Shown in pieces: positions 49,106-60,858 of a stretch of 64,000 nucleotides of DNA. The notes under the pieces were generated by a model. That model saw only the letters and a list, made by a program, of their open reading frames with translations, made no database searches and was not told where the DNA came from. The position numbers were made by a program, and so were the translations under genes. Positions within the stretch are counted from its first letter, which is position 1; every line of letters begins with the position of its first letter. Origin of the DNA: Flavobacteriaceae bacterium (GTDB lineage: Bacteria > Bacteroidota > Bacteroidia > Flavobacteriales > Flavobacteriaceae). The stretch is from contig JABDIV010000046.1 of the NCBI GenBank assembly GCA_013003555.1, positions 1 to 64,000 of the forward strand. The letters are read 5' to 3'.

Positions 49106-51301
49106 TTAGGCAGCTAAAATCGCTTTTACTTTGGCCGGTGTAAATGGAATATGTTTTAATCGTTTTCCTGTTAAGTTTGCAAAGGCATTACCTATAGCAC
49201 CACCAATTATCGGTACTCCCGATTCGCCTATTCCTGTTGGTCTTTCGGTTGATGAAATAATTTTAACTTCTAAGGTATCGGGTATTTCATCCATTCTCAA
49301 AATATTATAATCATGAAAATTAGATTGTTCTACTTTCCCATTTCTAAACGTCACACTTTCTTTCAATATGCTGCTCATTCCCATCAAGATCGCTCCCTCC
49401 ATTTGTGCAATGGCATTATCGGGCTGAACAACGACGCCGGCATCAAGGGCTGCCCAGATTTTATGAACTCTTATTATGCCGCTAGAGTCATCAACAGAAA
49501 GTTCACATACGCATGCTGAAAGTGAATTGCTGCGTTCAGCAAAGGCAATTCCCTTCGCCCTTCCAGAAGGACTCGGTGTTTTCCAATCGGCCATTTCAGC
49601 AACAGTTTTTAATACATTTTGTGCTCTTGGAAAGTCTTTCATTAAGTTCAGCCTGAAATCTAAAGGATCGATCTTTAAATCCGTTGCTATTTCATCAACA
49701 AATGATTCAATGGCGAATTTGTTCGGGCCATGACCGACGGCACGCCAATGCTTTGTCCGCACACCATGATTTACATTACGCGATTCGATATGTTGATTTG
49801 GTATCGAGTAGTATTGCGTTTCTGCTCCTGATCCCATTAAACGATTTCCCGTTCCAACAATTATATGTTTCCAGGCAATGACCTTATTTGAATTATCAAT
49901 ACTCGCTTCCATATGTTGTAAAGATTGGGGTCTAAACATCCCATATTGCAGGTCATCTTCTCTCGTCCAAATCAATTTAACCGGTCTTTTAGCCACCTTG
50001 GCTAGTTGAGTTGCTTCCACTGCGAAATCGGATGCAGATCGTCTTCCAAATCCTCCACCTAAATATGCTCGATGAAAATTCACTTTTGAAGGATCTATCC
50101 CTAATTCTTGAGCAATGTTATTTCTACAGCTTCCGGGGGCCTGAGTACCAACCCATGCTTCAGCACTTTGACCATCTTCCGCAACAGCAACAACTGCATT
50201 TAATGGTTCTTGTTGTGCATGGTATACAAAGTCATTTTTATAATTACTGGAATAGTTCTTCACACCTGAATTCAATGCATTAGTAATATTCCCTCTCTCC
50301 GAAATTACACTTCCGGAAGAAAGTGGCTGTCCTGCTATTTCCGGATACAAATCATAGGCTTCCTCACTATTGAATTCATCGGCTGTATTTCCTTTGCTCC
50401 ATTCAATTCGTAGTCTTGGTTTGGTTTTAAGCGCTAATTCTAAGGTTTCTGTTAAGAGGCCTATTCCATGATCCAACTCTACAACATCAAGCACCCCAGG
50501 GGTATTTATTATATCAGATCTATTAAGCAACGCAGGCCTAGCGCCATAAACCGGTGATCTTGAAATAACCCCGTATATCATATTTGGCACTTGAATATCT
50601 ATCGCATATTCTGCGCTTCCATTACATTTTGATGGAATATCGAACCTGGGCCCAACCTTTCCGATCAATCGAAAATTCGCCGGGTTTTTTAGTTTGGCTT
50701 CAGCCACTTCAGGAACTTCATCTATCGGTTTTACAATATTTGCTAACTCTCCATAAGACATTTGTCTATTAGAAGCTTTGTGAATTACCTTATTAGGCTC
50801 GGTTGTTAACTCATCAATCGAAACTCCCAAACTTGTAGCTGCAGTAGCCAATAAAACATATCTGGCCTGAGCTCCGGCCTGCCTTAGATTATTATAATAA
50901 CTCATTACAGTTCTACTTCCCACAGTGATCATACTCCCTGGTCCTCGTCCGCCCCAGCCAATTCCGTAAATATCAGGATCTGCAGGAGATTGCTCAACGG
51001 TTACTTTTGACCAATCGGCATCTAATTCTTCGGCAATAATGACTGCTAAGGCTGTCATACTGCCTTGTCCCATTTCCGAAGATGGATTATAAATTGTAAT
51101 AAAGTCGTCCTCATGAATTTGCACCCAAACAGTTACTTTCTGACCTTGGAAATCTGAATATGATTTTATTGGTAAGCCTTCTTCATTTAACAGGAAATCT
51201 GGAGCAAGTTTCCAGGCAGCCACCAGGAAAACAACTCCTCCGCCAATTACGCCAACAAATTTTCTTCTCGATAATCCTTTTGATTTTATTTGCTCCTCCA
51301 T
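49106..51301 (-). CDS. iorB: Isoquinoline 1-oxidoreductase-type molybdoenzyme, large (beta) subunit
   Basis: 731 residues from the ATG at 51301; a longer frame to 51376 would cover the small-subunit end. A twin-arginine (Tat) signal SRRKFVGVIGGG with a hydrophobic span follows at about 11-35. Family: xanthine-oxidase type with molybdopterin cytosine dinucleotide; segments GQGSMTALAVIIAEEL, GWGGRGPGSM, AYLGGGFGRRSASDF and, near the end, GIGESGVP with the catalytic Glu693. Hydroxylates N-heterocycles or oxidises aldehydes in the periplasm; the substrate cannot be read. Stop-start distance to the small subunit is one base. Confidence 0.9.
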   Translation of the reverse strand: MEEQIKSKGLSRRKFVGVIGGGVVFLVAAWKLAPDFLLNEEGLPIKSYSDFQGQKVTVWVQIHEDDFITIYNPSSEMGQGSMTALAVIIAEELDADWSKVTVEQSPADPDIYGIGWGGRGPGSMITVGSRTVMSYYNNLRQAGAQARYVLLATAATSLGVSIDELTTEPNKVIHKASNRQMSYGELANIVKPIDEVPEVAEAKLKNPANFRLIGKVGPRFDIPSKCNGSAEYAIDIQVPNMIYGVISRSPVYGARPALLNRSDIINTPGVLDVVELDHGIGLLTETLELALKTKPRLRIEWSKGNTADEFNSEEAYDLYPEIAGQPLSSGSVISERGNITNALNSGVKNYSSNYKNDFVYHAQQEPLNAVVAVAEDGQSAEAWVGTQAPGSCRNNIAQELGIDPSKVNFHRAYLGGGFGRRSASDFAVEATQLAKVAKRPVKLIWTREDDLQYGMFRPQSLQHMEASIDNSNKVIAWKHIIVGTGNRLMGSGAETQYYSIPNQHIESRNVNHGVRTKHWRAVGHGPNKFAIESFVDEIATDLKIDPLDFRLNLMKDFPRAQNVLKTVAEMADWKTPSPSGRAKGIAFAERSNSLSACVCELSVDDSSGIIRVHKIWAALDAGVVVQPDNAIAQMEGAILMGMSSILKESVTFRNGKVEQSNFHDYNILRMDEIPDTLEVKIISSTERPTGIGESGVPIIGGAIGNAFANLTGKRLKHIPFTPAKVKAILAA

Positions 51302-51302
51302 T

Positions 51303-51761
51303 TTATGATGTTTTAGATGCAATTTCAACGGCTTTGATAATTCGCATATAGGCAGCACATCTGCACAGATTCCCACTCATATGAGATTTAATATCTTCTT
51401 TACTAGGGTTCGCGTTATTGTCTAATAATGAAACTGCTTGCATGATCTGCCCGGATTGACAGTATCCACATTGAGGCACTTGCGCTTCAACCCATGCTTT
51501 CTGGACTGGATGATCGCTATTTTCTGAAAGTCCTTCAATAGTTGTTATCTCGCCACCCATGCATGCTGATACCGGCGTTACACACGATCTAATTGGAGTT
51601 CCATTTAAGTGAATGGTGCAGCTACCACAAAGTGCTTTACCACAACCATACTTTGTGCCAGTGAGCCCTAAATGTTCTCTCAACACCCATAAAACCGGAG
51701 TCATTGCGTCAACATTTACACTTTGACTCTGGCCATTAACCCGAATTGTTATTCCCTGCAT
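51303..51761 (-). CDS. iorA: Isoquinoline 1-oxidoreductase-type small (alpha) subunit, two [2Fe-2S]
   Basis: 152 residues. Plant-type ferredoxin cluster: KYGCGKALCGSCTIHLNG (first three Cys) and the fourth further on, then the second cluster CGYCQSGQ and NLCRCAAYMRI. Carries electrons from the molybdenum centre to an acceptor, probably a membrane cytochrome not present here. No signal of its own; exported with the Tat-bearing partner. Directly upstream of iorB. Confidence 0.93.
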   Translation of the reverse strand: MQGITIRVNGQSQSVNVDAMTPVLWVLREHLGLTGTKYGCGKALCGSCTIHLNGTPIRSCVTPVSACMGGEITTIEGLSENSDHPVQKAWVEAQVPQCGYCQSGQIMQAVSLLDNNANPSKEDIKSHMSGNLCRCAAYMRIIKAVEIASKTS

Positions 51762-54102: not shown

Positions 54103-54185
54103 CTGTTGTCATTTTACAACTTTTCTAACAAAATTTTGTAAACTTTTATCTACTTTGCCGTCTACAACTTTTGAAACTATACAAG

Positions 54186-54521
54186 ATGGCTAAGACATAC
54201 TATGATCCTTCCGACCTAAGAAAATTTGGTGACATTACCGAATGGAGCGAAGAGCTTGGCACTAAATTCTTTGACTATTACAATAAGGTTTTTGAAGAAG
54301 GGGTTCTTTCTGCCAGGGAAAAATCACTCATCGCATTAGCGGTCTCCCATGTTGTTAAATGCCCCTATTGCATCGATGCCTATTCGAAGGATGGCCTGCA
54401 ACGCGGCATAACTAAAGAAGAAATGATGGAAGCTGTGCATGTGGGTGCAGCAATCGAAAGCGGAGCAACACTTGTTCATGCCGTGCAAATGATGAACAAA
54501 GTAAATAAACTGGAAATGTAA
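54186..54521 (+). CDS. Arsenosugar-associated peroxidase-like (AhpD/CMD fold) protein
   Basis: 111 residues from the ATG at 54186 (MAKTYYDPSD); the frame to 54171 adds five residues. CMD/AhpD helix bundle with the redox pair in KCPYCIDAY (Cys59, Cys62) and HVGAAIESGATLVHA. AhpD-like proteins reduce peroxides or disulfides; in this family the gene is the usual first member of arsenosugar clusters. May keep the arsenic in its trivalent, reduced form; that role is inference. One base before arsS. Confidence 0.85.
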   Translation: MAKTYYDPSDLRKFGDITEWSEELGTKFFDYYNKVFEEGVLSAREKSLIALAVSHVVKCPYCIDAYSKDGLQRGITKEEMMEAVHVGAAIESGATLVHAVQMMNKVNKLEM

Positions 54522-55578: not shown

Positions 55579-56073
55579 ATGAAAAAACAAATTCTGTTCA
55601 TATTAATCGTTCTGTTCGTATTGCCAGTCTGCGGCCAACGATCACTTAACAGGGTTATCGAAAAGCATAATGATGGCAGCGTCCCTTACATTTCGGTTGA
55701 AGACCTGAACAAGTTGTCGGATGTAATTCTTTTCGACACAAGAGAAAAACGAGAATTTGATGTAAGTCATATAAAGAACGCGGTATTTGTCGGATATGAA
55801 ACATTCGATATTAATGCAGTAATTCGCCATCATCCCGAAAAAAATAAGACTATTGTTGTTTATTGTTCTATTGGAATTCGTTCAGAGGACATCGGTAAAA
55901 AACTCCTTTCTGCGGGTTACACTAATGTTTTTAATTTGTACGGAGGCCTTTTTAATTGGTTTGAGCAGGATCTGCCTTTATATGAGAACAGTAACGAACA
56001 AACCAACAGAATTCATGGGTTCACTCCATATTGGGGGAAATGGCTGAATAAAGGTCAAAAAATTTATGACTGA
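55579..56073 (+). CDS. Exported rhodanese-like protein of the arsenosugar operon
   Basis: 164 residues from the ATG at 55579 (MKKQILFILIVLF), one base after the arsS stop; this start gives a clear signal peptide (to VCGQ). Single rhodanese domain with LFDTREKREFD and the active loop VVYCSIGIRSED (Cys in YCSIGIR). It ends with ENSNEQTNRIHGFTPYWGKW. Could move sulfur to make thio-arsenosugars, or be a binding domain; the role is inference. Overlaps the next gene by 8 bases. Confidence 0.8.
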   Translation: MKKQILFILIVLFVLPVCGQRSLNRVIEKHNDGSVPYISVEDLNKLSDVILFDTREKREFDVSHIKNAVFVGYETFDINAVIRHHPEKNKTIVVYCSIGIRSEDIGKKLLSAGYTNVFNLYGGLFNWFEQDLPLYENSNEQTNRIHGFTPYWGKWLNKGQKIYD

Positions 56074-56677
56074 CGACTTGCTTATTGTTTTCATAAAAAA
56101 TCCGGAAGCCGGAAAGGTCAAAACCAGGCTTGCCAAAACAATCGGTAACGCATCTGCACTTAAAGTCTACAGAGCCTTACTTAAGCACACCAATGATATA
56201 ACAAAACAACTTTCATGCAACAAAATCCTGTACTATTCTGAAGCTATTAATCAGACTGATATCTGGTCGAATCAGACCTATCAAAAAGATGTTCAAATTG
56301 GCAGTAATCTTGGAGAGCGTATGCAGCATGCAATTAAAAGTGGATTTCAATCAGGTTACAAAAAAATTGTTTTAATCGGTAGCGATTGTTATGAATTACA
56401 ATCAGGTCATATTCAAGAGGCATTTGACGCTTTAAATGATCATAACATTACAATTGGTCCGGCCCGAGATGGCGGTTATTATCTGATAGGCTTGACACGT
56501 GAATATCCTCAAATTTTTAATAATAAACCTTGGGGAACATCCACCGTTTTGAAGGAAACATTAAAGGACTTAAACGGTGAAGCTGTATTTTTACTGAAGT
56601 CATTAAATGATGTAGACACATTTAACGATTTGAAATCACACAACAACTTGCTTAAACTGATCAAGAAACATGATTAA
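56066..56677 (+). CDS. Arsenosugar biosynthesis glycosyltransferase, TIGR04282 family
   Basis: 203 residues. Nucleotide-sugar transferase fold of the MobA/GT-A type: PEAGKVKTRLAKTIG at 12-26, VLIGSDCYELQSGHIQEA (catalytic Asp region), IGPARDGGYYLIGL. This DUF2064 family is found in arsenosugar clusters and related ones. Would attach or activate a sugar or glycerol group; the exact donor is unknown. Overlaps both neighbours by 8 bases. Confidence 0.88.
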   Translation: MTDDLLIVFIKNPEAGKVKTRLAKTIGNASALKVYRALLKHTNDITKQLSCNKILYYSEAINQTDIWSNQTYQKDVQIGSNLGERMQHAIKSGFQSGYKKIVLIGSDCYELQSGHIQEAFDALNDHNITIGPARDGGYYLIGLTREYPQIFNNKPWGTSTVLKETLKDLNGEAVFLLKSLNDVDTFNDLKSHNNLLKLIKKHD

Positions 56678-57482
56678 ATTTATTAATGAAACTGTTGACT
56701 ATCTTAAGGAAAGGGAAATAGGCCCTGCCGATGTTGGCATCATTTTAGGAACCGGTCTCGGACAATTGGTCGATCATATCGATATCGAAAAGCAGATCAG
56801 CTATAACCACATCCCGAATTTCCCCACGGCAACAGTCGAGTTTCATAAAGGCAAATTACTCTACGGTACCCTATCAGGTAAAAAAGTAATCGTCATGCAA
56901 GGACGATTTCATGTTTATGAAGGATATTCATTATATGCGGTGACATATCCTGTAAGGATTATGGAGAAATTAGGCATAAAGACACTTCTTGTTTCGAATG
57001 CGGCCGGTGCGATAAACCTCAACTTTAAAAAAGGCGAATTGATGCTGATCGACGATCACATCAATTTACAGGGCAGTTCACCACTCGCCTTTAAGGGTGT
57101 TGAGCAACTCGGTGAGCGATTTACCGATATGAGCGCTCCTTATAATCCGGAACTGAATAAACGGTTCGAAGCGATCGCCAAATCAAACGATATTACCTTA
57201 CATAAGGGCGTGTATGCGAGTGTGGTCGGACCTCAGCTTGAAACTCGTGCCGAGTATAGAATGATTAAATTACTTGGAGCTGATGCTGTTGGTATGAGCA
57301 CGGTGCCTGAAGTTATTGTGGCCAATCATCTGAATTTAAAGGTAGCAGCCGTGTCAGTTTTAACCGATGAATGCGACCCAAATAACTTAAAGCCTATAAA
57401 CATAAACGAAATCATAGCCATGGCAGAAAAAGCAGAACCACAAATGATCACTTTATTCACCGAATTAATAAAGACCTTATAA
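56670..57482 (+). CDS. Purine-nucleoside phosphorylase of the arsenosugar operon
   Basis: 270 residues, trimeric PNP/MTAP superfamily. Phosphate loop GTGLGQLVDH (27-36), GRFHVYEGYS, SNAAGAIN, and VGPQLETRAE with the conserved Glu191, then GMSTVPEVIVANH. At the place of the base-contact Asn (Asn243 in human PNP) stands Asp233 (LTDECD), as in methylthioadenosine phosphorylase, which takes 6-amino purines. In this operon it would split adenine from the arsenic-bearing adenosine. Both the alignment and the role are my inference. Followed by arsM after one base. Confidence 0.88.
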   Translation: MIKFINETVDYLKEREIGPADVGIILGTGLGQLVDHIDIEKQISYNHIPNFPTATVEFHKGKLLYGTLSGKKVIVMQGRFHVYEGYSLYAVTYPVRIMEKLGIKTLLVSNAAGAINLNFKKGELMLIDDHINLQGSSPLAFKGVEQLGERFTDMSAPYNPELNKRFEAIAKSNDITLHKGVYASVVGPQLETRAEYRMIKLLGADAVGMSTVPEVIVANHLNLKVAAVSVLTDECDPNNLKPININEIIAMAEKAEPQMITLFTELIKTL

Positions 57483-58473: not shown

Positions 58474-59358
58474 ATGGAAAAATATTGGGACATCATCAAA
58501 AACTCGTATTCGGGTTATTGGAATTATCTGAAACAAGAACTTTTTTTTCAGAATTACTGGGATAACTATTTTTATGGCTTAATCGCCATTTCACTTGTTG
58601 TTTGGTTGTTGGAAATTCGTTTTCCCTGGCGAAAAAATCAATCCGTGTTCAGACGTGACTTCTGGCTGGATACCTTTTATATGTTCTTTAACTTTTTCCT
58701 GCTGAATCTTATTGTTTTAATTGCACTATCGAATACAGCTTCCCAGTTTTTTAACGATTTGCTGAACGTTGTTAATCTTCAATTAACCGACCTTCAGTTA
58801 TTTGATGTTGATGATTTACCACGTTGGGCCGGGTTATTTATTTTCTTTATCATCTCAGATTTTGTTCAATGGAATACCCACCGGCTCCTGCATCGTGTTT
58901 CATGGCTATGGAATTTTCATAAGGTTCATCACAGCGTGAAACAGATGGGCTTTGCCGCCCACTTACGCTACCATTGGATGGAACCGGTGGTGTATAAATC
59001 GCTGCTTTATATTCCAATAGCAATAATTGGCGGATTTGACGCTCAGGATGTGGCGATCGTTCATTTTTTCGCATTGTCTGTCGGCCATCTCAATCATGCC
59101 AATCTCGGTTGGAATTATGGTCCGCTGCGTTACATCCTCAATAATCCCAAAATGCATATCTGGCATCACGCCAAAGAACTACCGAAGAATGTAAGGTATG
59201 GGGTAAACTTCGGACTGACCTTAAGTATTTGGGATTATATTTTTAAAACCGATTACATCCCTGAAGACGGAAGGGACATCGAATTGGGTTTTCCCGGTGA
59301 TGAAAGCTTTCCACAGGATTTTTTAAATCAAGAATTATATCCTTTTGGTAAATCATGA
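58474..59358 (+). CDS. Sterol desaturase/fatty acid hydroxylase superfamily protein
   Basis: 294 residues, about four membrane helices. Diiron His motifs NTHRLLHR, HKVHHS and HIWHHAK, plus GHLNHANLG between. Family enzymes hydroxylate or desaturate lipids with O2. In this operon it might act on an arsenic-bearing lipid or on the membrane lipid it joins; not known. Overlaps the DUF547 gene by 4 bases. Confidence 0.87.
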   Translation: MEKYWDIIKNSYSGYWNYLKQELFFQNYWDNYFYGLIAISLVVWLLEIRFPWRKNQSVFRRDFWLDTFYMFFNFFLLNLIVLIALSNTASQFFNDLLNVVNLQLTDLQLFDVDDLPRWAGLFIFFIISDFVQWNTHRLLHRVSWLWNFHKVHHSVKQMGFAAHLRYHWMEPVVYKSLLYIPIAIIGGFDAQDVAIVHFFALSVGHLNHANLGWNYGPLRYILNNPKMHIWHHAKELPKNVRYGVNFGLTLSIWDYIFKTDYIPEDGRDIELGFPGDESFPQDFLNQELYPFGKS

Positions 59359-60173
59359 AAATTCTAATCTTTCTTTTTGTGTTATTGTTTCATAATGGTA
59401 GTTGTGAACGCCATGGTGAGCGTGCCACGCCATCAAATATTTCGGAAAACCCTAGCACACAAACGGCAGAAGAACCTTCCGGAAACATTCAACACGACAC
59501 GTTCGAATCTGATCCTGCGACAAGTCAATCCAGCTTTGATCATTCGGTTTGGAATCAATTATTAAATCAATATGTAACGGTAGATGGTCAGGTTGATTAT
59601 AACGCTATTAAATTGGAACGGAATAAGCTTCAAAAATACATTTCACAATTAGCAAAAAACACCCCTGATAAAAACTGGTCAAAAGCAGATAAGCTGGCCT
59701 ACTGGATTAATGCTTATAATGCGTTAACCGTTGACCTCATCCTGAGAAACTATCCCGTTAAAAGCATCAAGGATATCGATGATCCCTGGGAGCAACGCTT
59801 GTGGAATCTGGGATCAAAACAGTATAATCTCGACGAGGTTGAACATCAGATCTTAAGAAAAATGGATGAACCACGCATGCACTTCGCCATTGTTTGCGCC
59901 TCCTATTCCTGTCCGAAATTACGAAATGAAGCATATGTTGCCGAACGACTCGATCAACAACTAACCGAAGCTACCCGTTTATTTTTATCTGATACAAAAC
60001 GAAACTCAATTGCAGCCGATGCTATTGAGATCTCCAAAATATTTCAATGGTTCGCCAAGGATTTTAAGTCTGATGGGAGCGTTATCGACTTTATAAACCG
60101 GTATACCGATGTTGACATTTCACCCAATGCCAGAAAACGTTATAAGACCTACAACTGGGCCTTAAATGAATAA
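59355..60173 (+). CDS. DUF547 domain protein of the arsenosugar operon
   Basis: 272 residues. Signal peptide region 1-17 ending in GSC (HNGSCERHG), a possible lipoprotein. DUF547 hallmark: KLAYWINAYNALTVDLIL (about 115-132), IKDIDDPWEQ, and MHFAIVCASYSCPKL (Cys and Ser at about 180-186). The Cys-His-Asp-like layout has been compared with papain-type enzymes but no activity is known. Overlaps both neighbours (4 and 8 bases). Confidence 0.85.
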   Translation: MKILIFLFVLLFHNGSCERHGERATPSNISENPSTQTAEEPSGNIQHDTFESDPATSQSSFDHSVWNQLLNQYVTVDGQVDYNAIKLERNKLQKYISQLAKNTPDKNWSKADKLAYWINAYNALTVDLILRNYPVKSIKDIDDPWEQRLWNLGSKQYNLDEVEHQILRKMDEPRMHFAIVCASYSCPKLRNEAYVAERLDQQLTEATRLFLSDTKRNSIAADAIEISKIFQWFAKDFKSDGSVIDFINRYTDVDISPNARKRYKTYNWALNE

Positions 60174-60858
60174 AATCTCAATTATCATCCCTGTTTTAAA
60201 TGAGGCCGATAATATTGGACCTTTAATTCGACATTTACAACAGATAAGCAATCCCGAAAATATCGCAGATATTCTGGTTATAGATGGCGGAAGTTCAGAT
60301 GACAGTGTGGCGATTGCTTCAGCTTTTAATAATGTTACTGTTTTGCAGGAGGATTGCGGTAGGGCCAGGCAAATGAATACCGGTGCCAGGTCGGCGACCG
60401 GGGATATACTTTACTTCCTTCATGCAGATTCGTTTCCCCCTAAACTATTTGACGAACTCGTGTTAACTGAAATCGAAAGAGATAATTTAGCAGGTTGTTT
60501 TCGACTGAAATTTGATGACAACCACTGGTGGCTAAATTTAGCGGGATGGTTCACACAATTCAATTGGCGAATTTGCAGAGGAGGCGATCAAAGCCTTTTT
60601 ATAACCCGGGATTTATTTAGTTCTTTAAACGGCTTTGATGAGAACTATATAATCTATGAGGACAATGTATTGATATCTCAACTTTATGCCAGAAAGGAAT
60701 TTGTTGTTGTTAACAAACCAATTATCACGTCTTCACGTCGGTATCGGAAGCATGGCATTTGGAAAACTCAATTTCATTTCTGGTCAATTCATCTTAAGAA
60801 AAAACTTGGCGTACCAGCCGACTCTCTTTATCGCTATTATAAAAGAAATTTATCTTAA
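60166..60858 (+). CDS. Arsenosugar biosynthesis glycosyltransferase, TIGR04283 family
   Basis: 230 residues, family 2 GT-A fold. IIIPVLNEADNIGPLI, VIDGGSSDDSV, GRARQMNTGA, and FLHADSFPP with the DxD-like HAD; the later segment RICRGGDQSLF is common to this family. The last gene of the operon, overlapping DUF547 by 8 bases. Probably adds the glycerol- or sugar-derived part of the arsenosugar; donor unknown. Confidence 0.9.
   Translation: MNKISIIIPVLNEADNIGPLIRHLQQISNPENIADILVIDGGSSDDSVAIASAFNNVTVLQEDCGRARQMNTGARSATGDILYFLHADSFPPKLFDELVLTEIERDNLAGCFRLKFDDNHWWLNLAGWFTQFNWRICRGGDQSLFITRDLFSSLNGFDENYIIYEDNVLISQLYARKEFVVVNKPIITSSRRYRKHGIWKTQFHFWSIHLKKKLGVPADSLYRYYKRNLS

Follow-up and report, generated by a model that had tools for sequence, protein, structure and literature searches.

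The window, that is, the whole stretch of 64,000 nucleotides of Flavobacteriaceae DNA that was analysed, encodes a purine nucleoside phosphorylase (PNP) that was probably recruited to the arsenosugar operon in an ancestor of the Flavobacteriaceae. From its sequence and its gene neighbourhood, the enzyme is predicted to remove adenine from the product of the radical SAM enzyme ArsS. The operon comprises nine genes on the same strand, separated by gaps of −11 to +21 bases, and the PNP is the fifth of them, situated between DUF2064 and ArsM. The known arsenosugar cluster is ArsM-ArsS-AhpD-TIGR04282-TIGR04283, and all of these families are present in the window; ArsS, the arsenosugar ArsM, TIGR04169, TIGR04282, and TIGR04283 all score above their NCBIfam cut-offs. 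NCBIfam names no PNP among the arsenosugar families, in contrast to the operon of the window, and a literature search that covered few subscription papers found no paper linking a nucleoside phosphorylase to the arsenosugar pathway. The genes of the operon and the PNP residues discussed below are collected in the table.

Table. Genes of the arsenosugar operon and selected codons of the PNP gene, in positions of the window
Feature	Position	Strand	Basis or remark
AhpD-like protein, TIGR04169 (arsenosugar-associated)	54171..54521	+	profile
ArsS radical SAM, TIGR04167	54522..55577	+	434 bits (cut-off 300)
Rhodanese, NF045521	55567..56073	+	profile
TIGR04282/DUF2064, related to nucleotidyltransferase CofC	56066..56677	+	8-base overlap with PNP start
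PNP (PunA/TIGR01700-type), type B, 270 aa, ATG start	56670..57482	+	ORF and profile
PNP Leu190 = human Phe200 (stacks on purine)	57237..57239	+	
PNP Glu191 = human PNP Glu201	57240..57242	+	alignment
PNP Asp233 (codon GAT) = human PNP Asn243 = MTAP Asp220	57366..57368	+	alignment
PNP Ile245 = human His257 (5'-OH side) = MTAP Val233	57402..57404	+	first residue of C-terminal helix
Arsenosugar ArsM, NF038099	57484..58452	+	572 bits (cut-off 400); start 1 base past PNP stop
Fatty-acid hydroxylase family (PF04116)	58474..59358	+	
DUF547	59355..60173	+	
TIGR04283 GT2-like arsenosugar glycosyltransferase	60166..60858	+	profile

By profile, the protein is a trimeric-type PNP (PRK08202, 345 bits; cut-off 218). 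It passes the TIGR01700 cut-off, with 299.6 against 293.35 bits, and the profile for methylthioadenosine (MTA) phosphorylase (MTAP), TIGR01694, scores 94.5 bits, below its cut-off of 274.85. With the trimeric PNP-I/PunA enzymes it shares the fold, Glu201 (human numbering), and the active-site residues His86, Tyr88, and Met219. The nearest structure is that of Spirosoma linguale PNP (Protein Data Bank code 4LNA; Z 41.2 over 267 residues, rmsd 1.2, 53% identity). The genome from which the window comes has three PF01048 proteins, namely this PNP, a DeoD-like protein, and a uridine phosphorylase-like protein, the latter two named from a reading of their sequences. The window PNP is the sole PunA-type PNP of its genome, in which neither MTAP nor MTAN was found.

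The PNPs of the Bacteroidota fall into two types, which were assigned from residues read from the sequences, because at the level of the phylum the two types cannot be told apart by their BLAST identity to a type-A query. In human numbering, type A has Phe200, Gly245, His257, and Val260. Type B, to which the window PNP belongs, has Leu200, mostly Cys245, Ile, Val, or Leu at 257, and mostly Ile260. Positions 200 and 257 covary almost without exception, and Leu200 is paired with an aliphatic residue at 257 in nearly all sequences. Ile245 of the window PNP is taken as the equivalent of His257 because the spacing is equal to that in type A and because the C-terminal helix in the AlphaFold model (pLDDT 89.7) begins at residue 245, just as the corresponding human helix spans residues 257–284 (PMC4308819). 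In the crystal structure of human PNP, His257 forms a hydrogen bond with the 5'-OH, a bond that does not persist in simulation (PMC4308819), and this histidine is described as important, yet dispensable (PMC7338719).

Human-type PNPs differ from the window PNP in that both Asn243 and His257 are replaced in the latter, which is also located in an arsenosugar operon. Like human MTAP, the window PNP has an Asp at the base site and an aliphatic residue facing the 5' group, but it has Glu191 where MTAP has Ser, and Leu190 where MTAP has Phe. Given Asp233 and Ile245, the site is MTAP-like at both ends of the substrate, whereas the overall sequence and fold are those of a PNP. The pocket suits an adenosine with a 5' substituent, of which the ArsS product is an example, and for such a nucleoside the change of His257 to Ile is to be expected. 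The pocket is not specific to ars clusters, since an aliphatic residue at 257 is also found in 43 of the 77 Bacteroidota PNPs that do not belong to the ars clade (defined by the tree below); the S. linguale enzyme resembles the window PNP in Asp243, Cys245, and an aliphatic residue 257. The type-A PNP of Bacteroides fragilis (8SWT) belongs to the same family and shares Asp243 and Glu201 but differs in Phe200, Gly245, and His257. Seven further residues (Phe58, Ala114, Gln134, Ser137, Ala140, Phe141, and Gln189) are almost invariant within the ars clade and uncommon among the remaining type-B enzymes; several of the seven adjoin known active-site residues (human His64 and Phe200) or lie within the loop preceding human Phe159.

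An earlier, sequence-only reading of this DNA had placed Asp233 at the site of human Asn243, with the Glu191 of the PNP type kept, and the alignment with the human PNP and MTAP reference sequences, both verified against PDB sequences, agrees with this. The same reading held that an Asp at this site selects 6-amino purines, and this argument fails. The N243D variant of calf/human PNP, in which Glu201 is kept, cleaves guanosine and inosine and adenosine as well (PMC6274182), an adenosine-directed human PNP was engineered with E201Q in addition (PMC2799393), and the B. fragilis PNP, which carries this Asp, has a structure with bound Immucillin-H, an inosine-type analogue. Moreover, 202 Bacteroidota PNPs were read, drawn from samples of the phylum, of the family, and of one genus as well as from named Flavobacteriaceae loci. 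Asp occupies human position 243 in 201 of them (125 of 125 in the ars clade and 76 of 77 outside it), and Glu occupies position 201 in all 202. An Asp in the housekeeping PNPs of the phylum had been named as evidence against the reading; outside the ars clade, 76 of the 77 PNPs carry it. Because the Asp is phylum-wide, it is not a feature of the window gene or of ars clusters, and it was rejected as an ars-specific mark. The proposed removal of adenine after ArsS therefore loses the reasoning from Asp, but it retains the co-occurrence with ArsS, the tight operon, and the change of His257 to Ile. The lone Asn243 belongs to the second copy of a tandem pair (locus L250, genome G273), in which one PNP has Asn243 and His257, and the other Asp243 and Ile257.

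The linkage of type-B PNP to ArsS was assessed in a family sample of 120 Flavobacteriaceae genomes, about one per genus. All 88 genomes with ArsS have a type-B PNP, compared with 12 of the 32 without ArsS (Fisher p 8e-15). ArsS and the PNP lie within 12 kb of each other in 74 of the 88 genomes, with a median distance of 2.1 kb. The PNP is unlinked to ArsS in the remaining 14, but it is found there beside DUF2064, and in most cases also beside ArsM or a TIGR04283 glycosyltransferase. At named Flavobacteriaceae loci, 58 of the 59 PNPs no more than 10 kb from ArsS directly follow DUF2064, and 41 directly precede ArsM.

In a PNP tree of 108 sequences, with SH-aLRT support calculated by a quick method, the ars-linked Flavobacteriaceae PNPs group together in a single clade, which comprises 59 rows and has a support of 100 and a stem of 0.37. 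Non-ars members of the family are nested inside this clade, so the simplest reading of the tree is a single recruitment followed by loss.

A second sample consisted of 111 genomes of the genus of genome G218, which is probably Flavobacterium because the PNPs of F. kayseriense and F. cellulosilyticum (L196 and L203) group with its members. ArsS occurs in 6 of the 111 genomes, and exactly those six carry a PNP that is 57–70% identical to that of the window, at 1–10 kb from ArsS. The other genomes have a PNP that is 43–50% identical to that of the window, or none. The six ars PNPs have Leu/Cys/Ile at positions 200, 245, and 257; the 16 other PNPs read in this genus are type A, with Phe200 (Tyr in one), Gly245, and His257, and five of these 16 are second PNP genes of ArsS genomes. 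The six ArsS genomes fall into two lineages of the tree, and they are therefore not six independent events.

This genus sample bears on two other explanations. The PNP could be a housekeeping inosine/guanosine phosphorylase that lies in the operon by chance, as its TIGR01700 score, the binding of Immucillin-H by the Asp-bearing B. fragilis enzyme, the retention of type B in the 12 family genomes without ArsS, and the lack of a second PunA-type PNP in the genome of the window would allow. However, the G218 genus has a separate His-type housekeeping PNP and carries type B only together with ArsS, and DeoD can serve purine nucleoside salvage in the genome of the window. Alternatively, the enzyme could reduce arsenate by arsenolysis, with arsenate taking the place of phosphate, thiols reducing the ribose-1-arsenate, and the arsenite feeding ArsM. 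The PNP indeed adjoins ArsM and is near a rhodanese, and mammalian PNP is cited in the review PMC12608789 (for work by Gregus and Nemeti and by Radabaugh) as reducing arsenate with thiols in vitro, but the same review calls its occurrence in vivo unknown. Any PNP should suffice for this reaction, yet the genomes of the G218 genus with a His-type PNP add a type-B enzyme, and only when they have ArsS. Because the second PNP in this genus appears only with ArsS, both explanations lose weight; we consider a housekeeping role quite unlikely and arsenolysis very improbable.

The main rival to a dedicated role in the arsenosugar pathway is a general 5'-deoxynucleoside phosphorylase. Type B would then clear 5'-deoxyadenosine and MTA, both by-products of SAM, its place in the operon would be due to the radical SAM chemistry of ArsS, and it might take the arsenic nucleoside as well. 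Cleavage of 5'-deoxyadenosine is known for the MtnP of Synechococcus (PMC8102628), and type B is widespread without ArsS. The genome of the window, lacking MTAP and MTAN, has only the PNP, DeoD, and the uridine phosphorylase-like protein, and MTAP is above its cut-off in none of the 120 family genomes. In the family sample, MTAN is present in 7 of the 8 genera with a His-type PNP versus 2 of the 99 with type B only (p 1e-8). As a demonstration that the MTA/5'-deoxyadenosine enzyme of the phylum is type B, this anticorrelation was rejected. It is kept only as a hint, because it does not hold in the phylum sample, where just 10 of 296 genomes have MTAN, or in the G218 genus, where genomes with a His-type PNP or without a PNP also lack MTAN. 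Nor does a general role explain the fixed position between DUF2064 and ArsM, and we regard it as unlikely. Several genomes of 5–6 Mb in the G218 genus (e.g. G021, G025, and G222) have neither a PunA-type PNP nor MTAN.

The PNP is not a constant partner of ArsS. A search of genome contigs with an ArsS alignment gave matches almost only in Flavobacteriaceae or Flavobacteriales. Of 20 ArsS loci in Bacteroidota families other than the Flavobacteriaceae, 19 have AhpD, and DUF2064 or GT2 is often present, but none of the 20 has a nucleoside phosphorylase within about 9 kb of ArsS; within the Flavobacteriaceae, the PNP is located elsewhere in the 14 of 88 genomes mentioned above. The adenine step outside the Flavobacteriaceae must therefore fall to another gene. 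Conversely, four genomes (G182, G312, G330, and G397, with loci L109, L110, L116, and L118, respectively) retain a rhodanese-DUF2064-PNP module and have no ArsS and no arsenosugar-type ArsM above the cut-off. Because the module is kept without these two genes, it either has another substrate there or is a leftover.

In one subclade of the Flavobacteriaceae, S-methyl-5-thioribose-kinase-like and ADP-ribosylglycohydrolase family proteins often adjoin PNP-DUF2064-rhodanese (L097, L099–L103, L109, L110, and L116). The kinase-like neighbour matches TIGR01767 with an E-value of 1.6e-37, but its 129.5 bits are below the cut-off of 275. S-Methyl-5-thioribose kinase is an enzyme related to 5-modified ribose-1-phosphates, and these neighbours are compatible with a module for 5-modified ribose phosphates.

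The papers searched on arsenosugar biosynthesis give neither the removal of adenine from the ArsS product nor the form in which the arsenoribose is passed on. In the account of oxo-arsenosugar biosynthesis that PMC12159101 gives in citing the ArsS study, a radical SAM enzyme adenosylates arsenic. The most likely next step is phosphorolysis by the window PNP, which would split the N-glycosidic bond of the ArsS product, 5'-deoxy-5'-dimethylarsinoyl-adenosine, and release adenine together with 5-deoxy-5-dimethylarsinoyl-ribose 1-phosphate. In this reaction, Asp233 could accept the 6-amino group, which is possible but not diagnostic, and Ile245 in place of the His at the 5'-OH would create a greasy 5' pocket with room for a group other than a hydroxyl.

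The use of a phosphorylase would leave C1 activated. A sugar 1-phosphate is the expected substrate for a CofC-like enzyme, and DUF2064 is for this reason the candidate for the next step. Although annotated as glycosyltransferase, this family has relatives in the guanylyltransferase CofC (24.5 bits with PF01983, whose cut-off is 22) and in 3CGX, a putative nucleotide-sugar enzyme. From the sugar 1-phosphate, the DUF2064 protein could make a nucleotide sugar, which the TIGR04283 glycosyltransferase would then use. We put forward only tentatively the complete route, in which a dedicated arsenonucleoside phosphorylase would yield arsenoribose 1-phosphate, DUF2064 would turn this into an NDP-arsenoribose, and the latter would be the donor for TIGR04283. 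If it is correct, arsenosugars are built via a nucleotide-sugar route.

The step assigned to the PNP is directly testable, with a named gene, a contrasting pair of His-type and Ile-type PNPs in one genus, and two residues that can be mutated. The annotation "inosine and guanosine-specific" has been transferred to many Bacteroidota PNPs without the His of the 5' site, and it should be read with caution. Two open reading frames on the minus strand at 49106–51761, which lie upstream of the operon, resemble by eye the large subunit of a molybdenum hydroxylase and its 2Fe-2S subunit.
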